64,000 nucleotides of DNA from Dictyobacter arantiisoli (lineage in GTDB: Bacteria; Chloroflexota; Ktedonobacteria; Ktedonobacterales; Ktedonobacteraceae). The notes under the pieces were generated by a model. The model was given only the letters and a program-made list of their open reading frames with translations. It had not been told where the DNA came from and made no database searches. The translations under genes and the position numbers were made by a program. Every line of letters begins with the position of its first letter. The stretch's first letter is position 1. The stretch spans positions 1 to 64,000 of the forward strand of contig NZ_BIXY01000030.1 of NCBI RefSeq assembly GCF_008326305.1. Direction: 5' to 3'. This document shows positions 12,877-27,936 of this stretch, one piece after another.

Positions 12877-13006
12877 ACATTCTCAATACATCCTCCGCAT
12901 AAATGCACCCTTTGGAGGAGCACAAATCTATCCTTGCGGGCTATAGTTATTGTTATGGAATTGTCGTATCTCATCCCTGTGATAGCATTAGTTGAGGAGG
13001 ATTCTC

Positions 13007-14635
13007 GTGGAACATCCTGATCAAAATGCTGACCAGTCAGCAAAAAATACGCCGGGTGCTACGCCAGAGCAGATCGAACCAGCTATAGAACAACATCAAC
13101 GCTTTAACACCGCACAAAGCCAGAAGCACTATACTCCACGCCTGCCGTTATCAGAATCCGCCCTGCCTGCCAGTGAGAGGAATCTAACACCGCAGCCCGC
13201 ACGGGAAGTGGATAACTCAGCCATGGCATCTTCCTCAACACCGGAATATCCACAGACTGAACAGCCTGACAATGGGACATCCCAGACGCCCTATGATGTG
13301 CCAGGAACAGATTCTCTCACGCAAAATACACCACTGGATATGGCTTACTACGCCTCTTCACAGCCGGGTTCACCCTATTATATGCCCGGCCCAGGTTCTT
13401 CACAGCCAAAGGATGCGGCAGACGCCCCGTCCTCACCAGCAGATCCGGCCATGGATACCACCCACACCATTCCAGCAACCGGCGCGCGTACCAGCACAGG
13501 AGGATATGCCTCGGGAATGATGGCAACAGTGCCACCACAGGGTCCAGACCGATCCAATCAACCAGGCAATGCATACGGAGGTAGAAACAGGGAAAGTTTA
13601 GCGGCACTGCTTGTCATTCCCTTGCTCGCACTGCTCATCGGCGGACTGGGCGGATGGCTGATAGGAACTGGAAGCGTATTCTCAAATCCGGGCTTCACCC
13701 CTCTGGGAGGCTCAACAATTGAGCAGGTGGCGGCGAAATTTCATACCTCCGTCGTCGAAATCACGGCGCAAAGTCGGCAAGGAACTAGCCTGGGATCAGG
13801 CGTCATTATCGATAAAGACGGCTATATCGTTACCAATAATCACGTCATCACTGGCGGTCATAATCTACAGGTCGTACTCTACGACAACACTAAAATCCCA
13901 GCTGAATTAACGGGAACTGATCCAAGTGATGATCTGGCAGTCATCAAGATCCATCCTCCCCAGCATATGTCAGTGGCACAGATCGGTGACTCATCCAAAC
14001 TCAATGTAGGACAGCAGGTGCTCGCGATTGGCAATCCGCTAGGCATCACACAGACGGTAACCAATGGTATCATCAGCGCCCTGGGCCGTAACGTCAGCGA
14101 GGGACAGGATCATCTTATTATTAATGCTATCCAGACTGACGCGCCAATTAATCCTGGCAACAGTGGTGGCGCACTGGTCGGCATGCAAGGCACACTTATC
14201 GGTATTCCAACCCTTGTACCTATTGATCCTGAATTTAAAACTCCGGCCGCAGGTGTCGGCTTCGCCATTCCTGCCAATCGCGTCAAATTTATCGTTCCGC
14301 AACTGATCAAGGATGGACAGGTGACAAATTCGGGGCGTGCCGATATGGGAGTGCAGGTCATCAGCGTCGACCAAACAATTGCCAATGACGCGCGACTACC
14401 TGTGAATCAGGGCGCGCTAATCGTAGATGTGGTACCTGACAGCGCAGCCGCTCAGGCGGGGCTACAGCGGCGTGACATCATCGTACAGATGGATAAGCAA
14501 CAAATAGAGGGTATAACCAGCCTGCAAGATTATCTTGTTGACAAGAGTCCCGGCAACACCGTGCTGGTGCATATCTATCGCGCCGATCAACAGATGGACG
14601 TAAAGGTAAGATTGGGTGAACGTAAGGTTTCTTGA
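13007..14635 (+). CDS. HtrA/DegP-type serine protease with disordered cytosolic tail
   Basis: Membrane-anchored protease of 542 residues. Residues 1-190 are Pro/Ser/Gln-rich and presumably unstructured in the cytosol. A single helix (about 198-222, LAALLVIPLLALLIGGLGG) follows. The trypsin-like domain has the triad His279 (TNNHV), Asp309 (DDLAVIK) and Ser386 (NPGNSGGAL). One PDZ domain spans about 430-540. It should degrade or refold damaged exported proteins. GTG at 13007 is chosen because GAGGAGG sits six bases upstream; a TTG further up overlaps that site. The gene product then faces a YtxH-like protein gene downstream. Confidence 0.92.
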   Translation: MEHPDQNADQSAKNTPGATPEQIEPAIEQHQRFNTAQSQKHYTPRLPLSESALPASERNLTPQPAREVDNSAMASSSTPEYPQTEQPDNGTSQTPYDVPGTDSLTQNTPLDMAYYASSQPGSPYYMPGPGSSQPKDAADAPSSPADPAMDTTHTIPATGARTSTGGYASGMMATVPPQGPDRSNQPGNAYGGRNRESLAALLVIPLLALLIGGLGGWLIGTGSVFSNPGFTPLGGSTIEQVAAKFHTSVVEITAQSRQGTSLGSGVIIDKDGYIVTNNHVITGGHNLQVVLYDNTKIPAELTGTDPSDDLAVIKIHPPQHMSVAQIGDSSKLNVGQQVLAIGNPLGITQTVTNGIISALGRNVSEGQDHLIINAIQTDAPINPGNSGGALVGMQGTLIGIPTLVPIDPEFKTPAAGVGFAIPANRVKFIVPQLIKDGQVTNSGRADMGVQVISVDQTIANDARLPVNQGALIVDVVPDSAAAQAGLQRRDIIVQMDKQQIEGITSLQDYLVDKSPGNTVLVHIYRADQQMDVKVRLGERKVS

Positions 14636-22664: not shown

Positions 22665-25600
22665 ATGAATGAAGACGATACTTCTAATATAATAGCCCCT
22701 CTTAATTCTATCAAACTAGAAACACCTTTTTCTGCCATATTTTCGACACGCCCAGACAATACGACGTCCGTACAGGGAAGTGAGGTAGATGTGAGGCTGG
22801 TAGCTGAACGTCTCACGACACTTGCACAACAGCCTCACATCTATCAAGCTGCCGTCTATATCTATTTCGCTGGTCAATATGAACTTTCAATTCCTGAATC
22901 GCTCCTGGCGATGCTCTGCCTGCCAGACAAACCTGAAAGCATACTGAATCAACCTGCGATGCTCGGACTACTCCAGCGCGAAGAGAACGTACCATCGTTG
23001 ATACGAGCTACAAACTCATCTATCGCGCGTGCCGCTCTACAACATTATCAAGCTGATCCCTATTCACTTCTGCACGCATATATTGGCGCGCTCCAACCGC
23101 AGCGGCGTGAACAACGCATATTTTTACAACGCCTGCTTGAATATCTCGTTAAAGATACATACCTGTTACCGGTGCAAGACATCTTGCTTGAGCAGGATGC
23201 CTGGTTTCGAGCTTTAATCATGCATTGTGGCAATGCTGAAATGATGAATTGGGCGCAACTCTATACCATGGTCGGTAAGCCCGCCAGCGCCGAGCGCATC
23301 ATTATTGAAGGTATGTCTAAAGCGCCAGAATACGATCTGGATTGGGTGGCCCTGATCAAGCAGACAGAACAAAAGGGTACAACCACCCAGAAAGCAGCGC
23401 TGAACACAAGGGTCATGCACTGGCTGGCCGAAAATCCACAGGATACGGTAGTCAGGCATGCGTATCTGGGTTTCATCGAGCGCAATGGAACTATCGCTGA
23501 TATCGCACAGACAATCCAGGAAACCGGGAATTGGCTACACGCCACGCCTCAGAATATTAATGTACGGCAGATTTATCTTAAATTTATCGAGCATTGGGGC
23601 AACAGGGATCAAATCGCGCAATTAATCGCCAGCACCGAACATTGGCTGGATATGACGCCCGATGATACGCAGGTTCGTCAGACCTATCTGGGACTGATTG
23701 AGCGCAATGGCACGCAGGATCAGATCGCACAACAGGTTGATAGCATCTATTATTGGCTGCTGGAACATTCTGAAGATGTGCATGTTCGTCAGGCATATCT
23801 ATGCTTTGTGGAGCGCTGTGGCAAACCAGAGCAAATCGCGCGTCTGATCGATCATACAAAAGACTGGTTGAGTACTCATCCACAGAATTCCAATATTCGC
23901 CAGACATACTTTAAATTCATTGAGCATTGTGGCAGCCCGGAGCAACTTGATGAACTGATCCAGAGCACGATGTCCTGGCTGGCTGCTAACCCGCATGATT
24001 GTTATGTTCGTCAGGTCTATCTCAAATTTCTGGAGCGACATGGCAGCCGAGAACAATGCAGCCAGCTCCTTGAGCAGCAGGAATTCGAGGTGATCATGAA
24101 CATTCCAGATGCTAATGTCCTGCATATTTACCTGGATCTCATACGGCGCGATGGTACTGAAGAGCAGATGCATGCACTTATCCAGCTCACGGCCAACCAT
24201 CTGGCTCTGAATCCCTATAGCCACGCAATTCGCACTACTTATCTGGAACTGATCAGTCACTATGCCCCACAGGACAAGATTATCGAAACGCTCAATGAAA
24301 CAGCAGGCTGGTTGGATAGCAATCTACAAACCAGTTCCATCCGTTCCACCTATCTCAAAATAGTTGATCGATACGGCACCCATGAACAGATTCTCAATGC
24401 CATTCGTAGTACCAGAAACTGGCTAGATATGAATCCGCAGAGCATCAATACACGCGCTCTCTATGTGGCACTCGTCGGACAACATGGCACCTACGAAGAT
24501 ATCAGGCAGACCATCGCAAGCATCGCCAGCTGGCTGATTGCCCATCCACAAGATCCCTATGTGCGCAGCGCATATCTCAAACTGGTACATCGTTATGGCA
24601 ACAGTGATGATATATGCAACACAATCAATAATACAGCCGCCTGGCTGGCAATCAATCCGGGCGAAACAAGACTACGTACAACCTTTCTTCGACTGGTCGA
24701 ACGGCACGGAACCAATCAACAGGCACAGACGACAATTGCGACCACACTTGTATTGCCAGCCGTACATTTACAGGATGCCAGTGTGCGCATTACACTGTGT
24801 GGACTGGTCCAAAGACGGGGCACACGAGAAGCCATTATGGCAACCATTGATCTGAGCCTCAAATGGTTGCAACTCAGGCGACATAACACTGAAATTAAGG
24901 CCTATCTGGAACTCATTGAACCATACGCAACCCATACACAAATTATAGAGGCGATTACAGCAACTGCATCCTGGTTGGATAACCATAAAAAAAACACCAA
25001 TATTCTTGCTCTCTACATCAAACTGGTGGATCGCTGCGGCCATCCTGAACAATTAGTATCCCTGCAAGAACGGATAAAAGAATGGCAGGATGTCCCTCAT
25101 CAAAATAATCTAGTCCTGATCAATCTGCTGCATTGTCTGGAACATCATGCCCGGCCCGATTATCTGGCGGCATTTATCCCTACGCTAGAAAGCTGGTTAC
25201 CGCAACACGTCCCAGAAGATAGTTTGCTCGTACAATACCTCAACTTTGTGAGTAAATATGGAACACACGAACAAACGTGCACTGCCCTGAATATGATCAA
25301 TGAAAAAATGGGCGCATCCCCATCCATAATCAGCTCTTATCTTCTCTCCACCTATCTCAATCTCCTTGGACGCTACAGTCCACAGTCATACACACAGAAC
25401 ATACTCAATTTCACCGCCGACTGGTTAGCAGAACACAGTCCGAATCCTTATCTACTGACCGTCTACCTTCAACAGAGCAAACATCATGGCACAGAGGATC
25501 AGATCAAACACGCCCTGGCTTTTACCAGACACTGGTTGCGCGACAACGTGCCTGATTCCTATCTGCTGACAATGTATCTAAGCCTGAACAAGCGCTATGG

Positions 25601-26708
25601 ATCGCGTGAGCAGATCGCCGCAGCTCTGAACTTCACTGCCTACTGGCTTGATAAACATAGCATAGATGATTTTATCCTGGAAACGTATCTGGATCTGGTG
25701 GATTATTGTGGTGCCGCACCGCAGACACTGCGTGCACTCACCATAGTAACTCCCTGCTTTTATAACAGCTCAAACCAGTTACAACCGCGCATACCAGCTG
25801 TCTATCTCAAGCTACTCAAACACTATGGCAACACCAGTCAGATCGCAGTGGGCCTGGAATTCACAGCCAGCTGGCTCGCTAACCATCCAGAGGATATCTT
25901 TGTGCGCGCCGCCTATCTACGACTGGTAGAATGCTATGGCAACCAGGATCAAATTGCCAGCCAACTTAAACACACCACAGCCTGGCTGGCTGCCCATCCT
26001 GATAGCATCTATGTCTGGACAGCCTATTGTAAACTTGTGGAACGACATGGTAGCGCGGACCAACAAAGCGCGAGCCTGAATATCCTCGTCGACTGGCTTA
26101 AACAACATCCAGATGATCCTATTGGTCGGAACTTATATCTGTCACTGATTAAACTCTATGGTAATAATGAACAGATTAGCAACGCCCTGCGTGCCAATAT
26201 AAACTGGCTGGAGTGCCATCCCGAGCAGGACACCGTCTGTGCCAGCTATCTGTCACTCCTGGAACAACATGGCGCAGTCCTTTATGAAGCGAAATTAGGT
26301 GAGGAAGCATTCGCTATCTACACCCGAGCACTCGCACTGGACCCCGATAATGTCCTGATCTATTACCATCTGGGAATCGCGCTCCGCAAATGCTATCGCT
26401 ATGATGAGGCGCTGGCCGTGTTTGAACGGATCATTACATTGACGCCCGACGATGCAACCGCTTACGCGAATAAAGCCAAGATTCTCTATAGTTGCAAACG
26501 CTATCCAGAGGCGTTACAGGCGTATGAGCAGGCCATTCGTTGCGATCCCCTGATTGCACAGGCGTATGGAGATAAAGGCACGATTCTGCGCCGCATGAAC
26601 CGCCTGGAAGAAGCTTTAGATGCATATGAACAGGCACTACGCTTATCGCCTCAGGATGCGGTGATACGCAGCAAAAAGAATGAGCTCAGCAAACGGCTCG
26701 GCAGGTAG
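22665..26708 (+). CDS. Giant solenoid protein: about 26 helical 37-residue repeats plus C-terminal TPRs
   Basis: A 1347-residue, probably cytosolic protein. Residues 1-250 form a unique helical N-terminal region. About residues 253-1215 are some 26 units of 37 residues with the consensus WLxxxPxdxxVRxxYLxLvErhGtxeQIxxaIxxTxx. The last 130 residues are three ordinary 34-residue TPR units (IYTRALALDPDNVLIYYHLGIALRKC...). The 37-residue unit is helical and TPR/HAT-like but longer than a TPR. No enzymatic motif is seen, so it probably serves as a protein-binding scaffold. It stands alone between a divergent gene and dinB. Confidence 0.85.
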   Translation: MNEDDTSNIIAPLNSIKLETPFSAIFSTRPDNTTSVQGSEVDVRLVAERLTTLAQQPHIYQAAVYIYFAGQYELSIPESLLAMLCLPDKPESILNQPAMLGLLQREENVPSLIRATNSSIARAALQHYQADPYSLLHAYIGALQPQRREQRIFLQRLLEYLVKDTYLLPVQDILLEQDAWFRALIMHCGNAEMMNWAQLYTMVGKPASAERIIIEGMSKAPEYDLDWVALIKQTEQKGTTTQKAALNTRVMHWLAENPQDTVVRHAYLGFIERNGTIADIAQTIQETGNWLHATPQNINVRQIYLKFIEHWGNRDQIAQLIASTEHWLDMTPDDTQVRQTYLGLIERNGTQDQIAQQVDSIYYWLLEHSEDVHVRQAYLCFVERCGKPEQIARLIDHTKDWLSTHPQNSNIRQTYFKFIEHCGSPEQLDELIQSTMSWLAANPHDCYVRQVYLKFLERHGSREQCSQLLEQQEFEVIMNIPDANVLHIYLDLIRRDGTEEQMHALIQLTANHLALNPYSHAIRTTYLELISHYAPQDKIIETLNETAGWLDSNLQTSSIRSTYLKIVDRYGTHEQILNAIRSTRNWLDMNPQSINTRALYVALVGQHGTYEDIRQTIASIASWLIAHPQDPYVRSAYLKLVHRYGNSDDICNTINNTAAWLAINPGETRLRTTFLRLVERHGTNQQAQTTIATTLVLPAVHLQDASVRITLCGLVQRRGTREAIMATIDLSLKWLQLRRHNTEIKAYLELIEPYATHTQIIEAITATASWLDNHKKNTNILALYIKLVDRCGHPEQLVSLQERIKEWQDVPHQNNLVLINLLHCLEHHARPDYLAAFIPTLESWLPQHVPEDSLLVQYLNFVSKYGTHEQTCTALNMINEKMGASPSIISSYLLSTYLNLLGRYSPQSYTQNILNFTADWLAEHSPNPYLLTVYLQQSKHHGTEDQIKHALAFTRHWLRDNVPDSYLLTMYLSLNKRYGSREQIAAALNFTAYWLDKHSIDDFILETYLDLVDYCGAAPQTLRALTIVTPCFYNSSNQLQPRIPAVYLKLLKHYGNTSQIAVGLEFTASWLANHPEDIFVRAAYLRLVECYGNQDQIASQLKHTTAWLAAHPDSIYVWTAYCKLVERHGSADQQSASLNILVDWLKQHPDDPIGRNLYLSLIKLYGNNEQISNALRANINWLECHPEQDTVCASYLSLLEQHGAVLYEAKLGEEAFAIYTRALALDPDNVLIYYHLGIALRKCYRYDEALAVFERIITLTPDDATAYANKAKILYSCKRYPEALQAYEQAIRCDPLIAQAYGDKGTILRRMNRLEEALDAYEQALRLSPQDAVIRSKKNELSKRLGR

Positions 26709-26826: not shown

Positions 26827-27936
26827 ATGGAATTGATCAGGAAGATTATCCATGTCGATATGGATGCGTTTTATGCTTCTATCGAGCAACGAGATCATCC
26901 TGAATGGCGTGGCAAGCCTCTGGTCGTGGGAGGTGATCCCAATCGACGGGGAGTGGTGGCAACATGTTCATACGAGGCGCGGCGCTATGGAATTCATTCC
27001 GCGATGGCAGCCCAGCAGGCATACCAGCGCTGTCCCCACGCTATCTTCATCAGGCCACGCTTTGACGTGTATCACGCCGTCTCCGCGCAAATCATGCAGA
27101 TTTTCCATAGCTATACTGAACTGGTTGAACCACTCTCATTGGATGAAGCCTATCTGGACGTAACCCATAACCTGCGCGGCATTGCAGCCGGCACCCATGT
27201 GGCCCAGGCAATTAAGGCGCAAATTTATCAGGAGACAGGGCTGACAGCTTCAGCAGGCGTTTCTTATAACAAATTTATCGCCAAACTGGCTTCGGATTAC
27301 CGCAAACCAGATGGCCTGACAGTTGTATCGCCCCAACAGGCCGTCCGCTTCCTGGAAGGAATCTCTATCGATAAGTTCTTCGGCGTCGGCAAAGTAACGG
27401 CGGCCCGACTACGGGAATTGGATATAGAGACAGGAGCCGATCTGAAGCGCTTGAGCGAGGCTGAATTACAACGCATCTTGCATAAGCAGGGAAGTGTGCT
27501 CTATCACTATGTACGCGGTGAAGATGATCGACCAGTACAACCCGCACGTGTCCGCAAATCGGTCGGTAAAGAGACAACGCTCTCCGAAGATCTCGATGAT
27601 CCCGAAGAATTGCTACTGCTGATGAGTCAGATGGCTGAACAGGTAGCACGACGTCTCCACGAGCTACAACTGCTCGGCAAAACGATCACGCTCAAGCTGC
27701 GCTGGAGTGATTTTCAGCGGCTCACGCGTAGCATCACCATTCCCGACGCCACACAGGATGCCCGGACGATAGTCAACATCCTGACCCCGGTCCTGCTGAA
27801 TCAAATGCAAACCGGACAGCAACGTGTGCGACTTATAGGAGTAACCGTTTCACATCTGATCACCAGTGCCGAAGCCAATCAACCAGCGCAAATTTATCCC
27901 TTACCGCTCTGGGACGAAGATGCCTGGCTGGCTTAA
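26827..27936 (+). CDS. dinB: DNA polymerase IV
   Basis: Y-family translesion polymerase of 369 residues, the usual length. Metal-binding residues lie in HVDMDAFYAS (Asp11) and LSLDEAYLD (Asp106-Glu107). GVSYNKFIAKLASDYRKPDGL and the FFGVGKVTAARL helix-hairpin-helix are present, and the little-finger domain fills the C-terminus. No obvious beta-clamp motif stands out at the C-terminus. AAAGGAG lies about 12 bases before the ATG, somewhat far. I see no LexA-type box in the 118-bp upstream gap. Confidence 0.95.
   Translation: MELIRKIIHVDMDAFYASIEQRDHPEWRGKPLVVGGDPNRRGVVATCSYEARRYGIHSAMAAQQAYQRCPHAIFIRPRFDVYHAVSAQIMQIFHSYTELVEPLSLDEAYLDVTHNLRGIAAGTHVAQAIKAQIYQETGLTASAGVSYNKFIAKLASDYRKPDGLTVVSPQQAVRFLEGISIDKFFGVGKVTAARLRELDIETGADLKRLSEAELQRILHKQGSVLYHYVRGEDDRPVQPARVRKSVGKETTLSEDLDDPEELLLLMSQMAEQVARRLHELQLLGKTITLKLRWSDFQRLTRSITIPDATQDARTIVNILTPVLLNQMQTGQQRVRLIGVTVSHLITSAEANQPAQIYPLPLWDEDAWLA

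Follow-up and report, generated by a model that had tools for sequence, protein, structure and literature searches.

STAND (signal transduction ATPases with numerous domains) receptors are described in an excerpt of PMC10907252 as effector-NTPase-sensor proteins whose sensors are tetratricopeptide repeats (TPRs). Inactive STAND modules, iSTAND and iSTAND2, are proposed as sensing parts in the section of PMC8195603 that deals with them. We analyzed a 64,000-nucleotide stretch of the Dictyobacter arantiisoli genome (contig NZ_BIXY01000030.1, positions 1 to 64,000; the window), in which one gene encodes a protein made mostly of a 37-residue helical repeat. The simplest account of this protein (P0001, the window protein) is that it is the sensor half of a STAND receptor resembling the NOD-like receptors (NLRs), without the effector and without the P-loop NTPase. 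In open-licence PubMed Central papers, no report was found of the 37-residue repeat or of a STAND sensor without an NTPase domain.

Full-length receptors carrying the same units identify the relationship. The first is a 926-residue protein from another genome of the genus (G025; L027 9224-12004, minus strand). Its Trypsin_2 domain (residues 35-169) is followed by a P-loop (GEPGAGKS at 298) that scores 28.4 bits against nSTAND3 (cut-off 27.2), then by a winged-helix region and an array of seven 37-residue units, of which the final one is incomplete. The protein also passes the PPTA cut-off with 41.7 bits. The other came from a plasmid search, which matched one record out of 72,556, pANA01 of Anabaena sp. 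90. The protein, WP_015081681.1 (1889 residues, annotated 'CHAT domain-containing'), has a CHAT domain (115-336) and an nSTAND_NTPase5 domain (413-542; 36.2 bits for the whole protein, cut-off 34). The NTPase is followed by a winged-helix region, an extended array of 37-residue units with some of 36 and 40 residues, and terminal TPRs. From the winged helix onward, this domain order is that of the window protein.

Residues 57-164 of the window protein match the winged-helix region of the G025 receptor by BLASTP (3e-14), and hhalign comparison of three window-type N-termini with the linkers of the two receptors gave a probability of 99.0 (E 2.9e-18) over query residues 42-224. The BLASTP match between the Anabaena protein and P0001 (E 1e-78) spans the linker and the repeats and runs into the TPR tail. 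The window protein shares the winged-helix/linker segment and the 37-residue unit with the G025 receptor (23-36% identity in the aligned BLASTP pieces), whereas the receptor has a protease and a P-loop, seven units that are ~80% alike in the stretches compared, no TPR tail that could be seen, and a different genomic site. The Anabaena protein shares the winged-helix/linker, the long array and the terminal TPRs; it differs in its CHAT domain and nSTAND_NTPase5-type NTPase, in its phylum and in being plasmid-borne. Homology to part of a STAND receptor is well supported by these sequence comparisons; the function is inferred. The N-terminal region, which an earlier note made from the DNA letters had called unique, is thus homologous to the winged-helix/linker of STAND receptors.

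The Walker A motif [GA]xxxxGK[ST] is present in the G025 and Anabaena proteins and absent from the window protein and its two intact orthologs. No Pfam family matched residues 1-240, and no protease, TIR, nuclease or CHAT family was among the best 25 of the 32 Pfam families matched by the whole window protein. Of the features of a STAND receptor, the window protein has a putative winged-helix/linker and C-terminal superstructure-forming repeats; the P-loop and the effector are missing. Because its sequence corresponds to the second half of each receptor and has no Walker A motif, the protein is read as the sensor half of such a receptor. 'Winged helix' is our reading of the segment after the NTPase in both receptors and is a name given by no library. 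The residue aligned to the His of what we take to be an MHD-like motif is N in the window protein, H in G026, S in G023 and G024, and H in the G025 and Anabaena receptors, where G023, G024 and G026 are further genomes of the genus; its loss in the window protein is suggestive only.

A receptor split into two genes was rejected as an explanation. Residues 1-404 of the G025 receptor (the protease and most of the NTPase) had no match at E<=0.001 in the window genome (G000), G023, G024 or G026, and no separate gene for the effector/NTPase half was found in them. A generic nSTAND_NTPase5 search placed 0/5 genus genomes above the cut-off, but sub-threshold matches occurred in all 14 control genomes, so this result is uninformative. 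A PDB sequence search with the NTPase/winged-helix part of the G025 receptor returned 0 matches; when the window protein was searched, its TPR tail accounted for the PDB matches.

The repeat array accounts for most of the window protein. Self-comparison of residues 241-1195 gave peaks at lags of 37, 74, 111 and 148 (z = 30.8, 23.1, 19.9 and 13.7); the top z at any lag in 300 shuffles was 4.1. An ungapped 37-position profile located 24 units with a spacing of mostly exactly 37. The units at 734 and 807, which have diverged or are out of register/one residue short, bring the total to 26. Among the 78 units of the three orthologs (26 units each), the consensus residue is found at W1 in 63, L2 in 63, Y15 in 65, L16 in 63, G23 in 66, Q27 in 49 and I28 in 47. 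The mean identity between units of the window protein is 26%. The earlier note had described a 37-residue repeat of about 26 units, fixed WL, Y/L, G and Q/I positions and three true TPRs at the C terminus, and these descriptions agree with the period, the counts and the three TPR_1 stretches.

Pfam models do not capture the units. When the repeat region alone was searched, the best TPR model was TPR_14 with 20.8 bits (cut-off 23.5), PPTA scored 19.1 (cut-off 29.5), HAT_PRP39_N scored 13.7 (cut-off 27.7), and the 12 families with E<=1 included no Sel1 model. A strong assignment to TPR, half-a-TPR (HAT) or Sel1 had been fixed beforehand as the outcome speaking against a distinct repeat, and none was obtained. 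A plain TPR is ruled out by these scores for the 37-residue units and is kept for the C-terminal tail. Hen1_L (PF12623) does pass on the repeat region with 57.4 bits (cut-off 23). Its best stretch spans 30 of 242 profile positions, matching residues 389-418 and other units, and the NCBIfam Hen1 model scored 40.1 bits against a cut-off of 340. Membership in bacterial Hen1 is ruled out because just this 30-position stretch is matched; since Hen1_L passes its cut-off, automated annotation could mislabel proteins with these units as Hen1.

Four window units were modeled with AlphaFold2 using an alignment of other window units (7 rows, window only). The model has eight helices, with a predicted local distance difference test score (pLDDT) of 89.4 and a predicted TM-score of 0.78. 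Helix A comprises unit positions 9-22 (14 residues), and helix B comprises 25-37 plus 1-4 of the next unit (17 residues). Foldseek found no PDB match for the model at E<=0.001; its top rows were TPR proteins (MamA) and designed repeats, and TPR chains aligned over the full length with a best E of 0.02. Full-length VIA-align 2 matches included a designed repeat (Z 13.6) and the TPR protein LbcA (Z 11.5), and such Z scores are common among unrelated helical repeats. The HAT proteins CstF-77 (Z 10.8) and SART3 (Z 10.2) fall in the range that unrelated helical repeats reach. As modeled, the four units look like an ordinary two-helix TPR/HAT-like alpha-alpha solenoid, and a new fold class is dismissed. 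The sequence data support a distinct helical repeat that no Pfam repeat model covers. The separate class of helical repeat with a superhelix of its own, suggested in the earlier note, is not supported.

A tblastn-type search with the repeat region found matches in 5 of 47 genomes of the order, and a four-unit profile did so in 5 of the 400 from the phylum; each count includes the window genome, and all matches are in one genus. The profile search and both genome searches with the G025 protein scored only part of the first-look candidates in some genomes (e.g. 3/13, 9/37), and weak matches there may be missed. Scans of genome contigs with P0001 and with the repeat alignment gave 4 and 43 pattern matches, viral-contig scans gave 124, 5 and 46, and 0 were confirmed; a phage search was likewise empty. 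These contig scans start from short seed peptides, and their empty outcome is weak evidence that the repeat is absent. Intact orthologs occupy one syntenic locus in three genomes, G000 included. The G026 protein has 1352 residues and 54% identity over the alignment, and the G023 protein has 1344 residues and 52% identity. The G024 ortholog (L026 8000-12035, minus strand) is split into four open pieces by an in-frame stop and two or more frame breaks, and its neighbors look intact. In G025, dinB, the gene that adjoins the solenoid gene elsewhere, is present and the solenoid gene is absent from that locus.

The three intact genes are under purifying selection. The proportion of nonsynonymous differences (pN, 0.25-0.32) is well below that of synonymous differences (pS, 0.74-0.76, saturated), which indicates that the protein is maintained. 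The G024 fragments compared with G023 gave pN values of 0.16-0.19 and pS values of 0.72-0.81. In G026 and G023, respectively, 23/26 and 24/26 window units match their orthologous unit best, and so the array is old and colinear. Residues 1-45 have 22-30% identity to the orthologs, compared to 46-65% elsewhere in the window protein.

Conservation of the exposed positions is concentrated in helix A. The exposed helix-A positions (9, 10, 13, 14, 17, 20 and 21) have a mean identity of 0.67 among orthologs versus 0.28 for exposed helix-B positions, with exposure assigned from the helix pattern and not from coordinates. This comparison used the 23 units in clean register (units 734, 807 and 883 were dropped from the 26). 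Helix A exceeds helix B in 22/23 units (Wilcoxon p = 1.7e-6), and the same contrast appears position by position with all 26 units. Helix A lines the concave groove in TPR-type solenoids.

The units of the G025 receptor have a different pattern. DNA identity among its six full units is 79-93%, and recent unit amplification is clear. Positions 10, 13, 14 and 17 hold 78.9 of the 155.9 amino-acid-changing differences (pairwise sum); these positions were chosen after looking, and synonymous differences cluster there too. The pN/pS ratio is 0.78 at these positions and 0.30 elsewhere. The contrast in entropy between helix A and helix B was not significant (permutation p = 0.077), and these counts do not support diversifying or positive selection in the G025 receptor. 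PADLOC RT_UG21 (listed under DRT) matches the units of this receptor at residues 831-880 (E 4.7e-7), and the RT_UG21 family may carry a related repeat. Immediately upstream of the CHAT-STAND gene in Anabaena is a DUF1822 gene (L058 767-1423), and a passage of PMC8195603 names TPR proteins with DUF1822 as neighbors of certain caspase-domain conflict genes.

On balance, the window protein is probably the stand-alone C-terminal half of an NLR-like STAND receptor that binds a single conserved ligand. In this reading, what is left of the winged-helix/linker leads into 26 TPR/HAT-like hairpins of 37 residues, which form a superhelix capped by TPRs. An ancestral receptor would have lost its effector and its P-loop NTPase switch, as opposed to the receptors having gained them. 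Ligand binding, probably of a protein, has most likely been retained by the superhelix, on a concave face that the A helices would form. Because the A face is kept unit by unit between species, the ligand would probably be a single conserved partner rather than an invader that changes quickly. Working by itself, the protein would be a sensor, scaffold or decoy, and its winged-helix remnant or TPR cap would perhaps relay the binding.

Several observations weigh against this proposal. The gene is dispensable, being broken in G024 and absent from the G025 dinB locus, which speaks against its being essential. The G025 and Anabaena proteins are the only two full-length receptors with these units that were found. 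The conservation of helix A could partly reflect packing between units instead of binding, and this alternative stays because exposure was read from the helix pattern. The single-sequence model of the N-terminal region had a pLDDT of 50 and was not used, so the winged helix rests on sequence only.

The gene neighborhood of the homologs, to which the earlier note had pointed, is a conserved locus before dinB in four genus genomes (G000, G023, G024 and G026); this does not extend to the G025 dinB locus, where the solenoid gene is missing. In these four genomes dinB is the next gene downstream on the same strand, with a gap of 118 bp in the window, and an HtrA-like protease gene and one more conserved gene lie upstream. 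The protease domain of the HtrA-like product matches PADLOC RT-Protease_XI (E 3.6e-14). A type IIG-like gene is found 2.9 kb beyond the solenoid gene. Its close homologs lie near the intact solenoid genes of G000, G023 and G026, the G024 homolog is ~20 kb off and matched over part of the query, and only distant homologs were found in G025. The presence and state of the type IIG gene track the state of the solenoid gene in the five genomes, which is at most a lead. The opposite strand inside the solenoid gene holds one mechanical open reading frame of 153 codons (among those of at least 150 codons).

Table 1. Features of the solenoid gene and its neighbors, in window coordinates.
Feature	Position	Strand	Basis or remark
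Whole solenoid gene	22665..26708	+	Single open reading frame, open for 1347 codons; 1347 residues
Poorly conserved leader, residues 1-41	22665..22787	+	Low identity to orthologs
Putative winged helix + linker, in STAND receptors located between NTPase and sensor, residues 42-252	22788..23420	+	BLASTP, hhalign
26 units of the 37-residue helix-turn-helix repeat, residues 253-1217	23421..26315	+	Profile; AlphaFold2 model of four units
Canonical TPRs, residues 1213-1335	26301..26669	+	Pfam TPR_1 E 6.9e-21, 3 stretches
DNA polymerase IV-like gene (IMS family, dinB)	26827..27936	+	Neighbor; context only
HtrA-like trypsin/PDZ protease gene	12992-14635	+	Syntenic upstream in G023, G024, G026
Type IIG-like restriction-methyltransferase, 1100 residues	29645-32947	-	Eco57I methylase domain; PADLOC REase_MTase_IIG E 1e-194

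Other histories of the gene were weighed against the same data. The solenoid could be the older element, captured together with its linker by STAND receptors as a ready-made sensor. The stand-alone form does sit at a conserved chromosomal locus, and the STAND forms are found on a plasmid in Anabaena and, as judged by eye, beside transposase-like and reverse-transcriptase-like open reading frames at L027. We consider capture unlikely: the segment shared upstream of the repeats is the winged-helix/linker, whose normal place is after a STAND NTPase, and this fits NTPase loss better; the stand-alone form was seen in one genus only, and unit-bearing STAND proteins occur in two phyla. A decaying receptor remnant with no function left would explain why the NTPase and effector are gone, why the G024 copy is broken and why the G025 dinB locus has no solenoid gene. 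Three intact genes of nearly the same length, with colinear units and pN well below pS, make this quite improbable, and even the G024 fragments show a low pN against pS in the comparison with G023.

The locus itself raises the idea of a general scaffold for DNA-damage tolerance or restriction that works with the polymerase IV encoded next to it or with the type IIG enzyme close by. The position of dinB in 4/5 genus genomes and the graded state of the type IIG homologs, from close beside intact solenoids to distant in G025, agree with such a role. The pattern comes from five genomes only and is explained by plain within-genus synteny, G025 has dinB without the solenoid, and co-transcription across the 118 bp gap is putative. 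This scaffold is very unlikely.

The sensor-half proposal has a broader extension that we regard as speculative and rather doubtful, namely that motor-less NLR sensors are kept in bacteria. In such a case, a vertically inherited STAND sensor half with a frozen 26-unit groove would guard related receptors or the type IIG system, serve them as a decoy or regulate them negatively; a full-length relative would meanwhile still be multiplying its units and changing a subset of these helix-A positions. For the sensor half as such, a repeat that Pfam does not model gains a likely role as the sensor of STAND receptors. The full receptor with its near-identical units and the switch-less protein with its frozen array form a natural pair, through which the positions that read the ligand, and the reuse of sensor halves without the NTPase, become open to testing.

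The window units resemble TPR, HAT and PPTA repeats in being two-helix solenoid units in the model, and differ in their 37-residue length, their 17-residue helix B and their Pfam scores below cut-off. Bacterial STAND antiviral receptors (Avs and relatives), as presented in the excerpt of PMC10907252, have a C-terminal helical-repeat sensor after the NTPase core as the window protein would, but the window protein has neither the NTPase nor the effector. The likeness to iSTAND and iSTAND2, going by the section of PMC8195603 on these modules, is the sensing role proposed for them without an active NTPase. Those modules keep an inactive NTPase domain, whereas the window protein is without any such domain. 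The variable sites of fungal NLR TPRs map to the concave side according to a portion of PMC4986451. By that account the G025 receptor is somewhat like the fungal repeats, with near-identical units that differ at a few helix-A positions, and the window protein is the opposite, with unlike units that are frozen between species.

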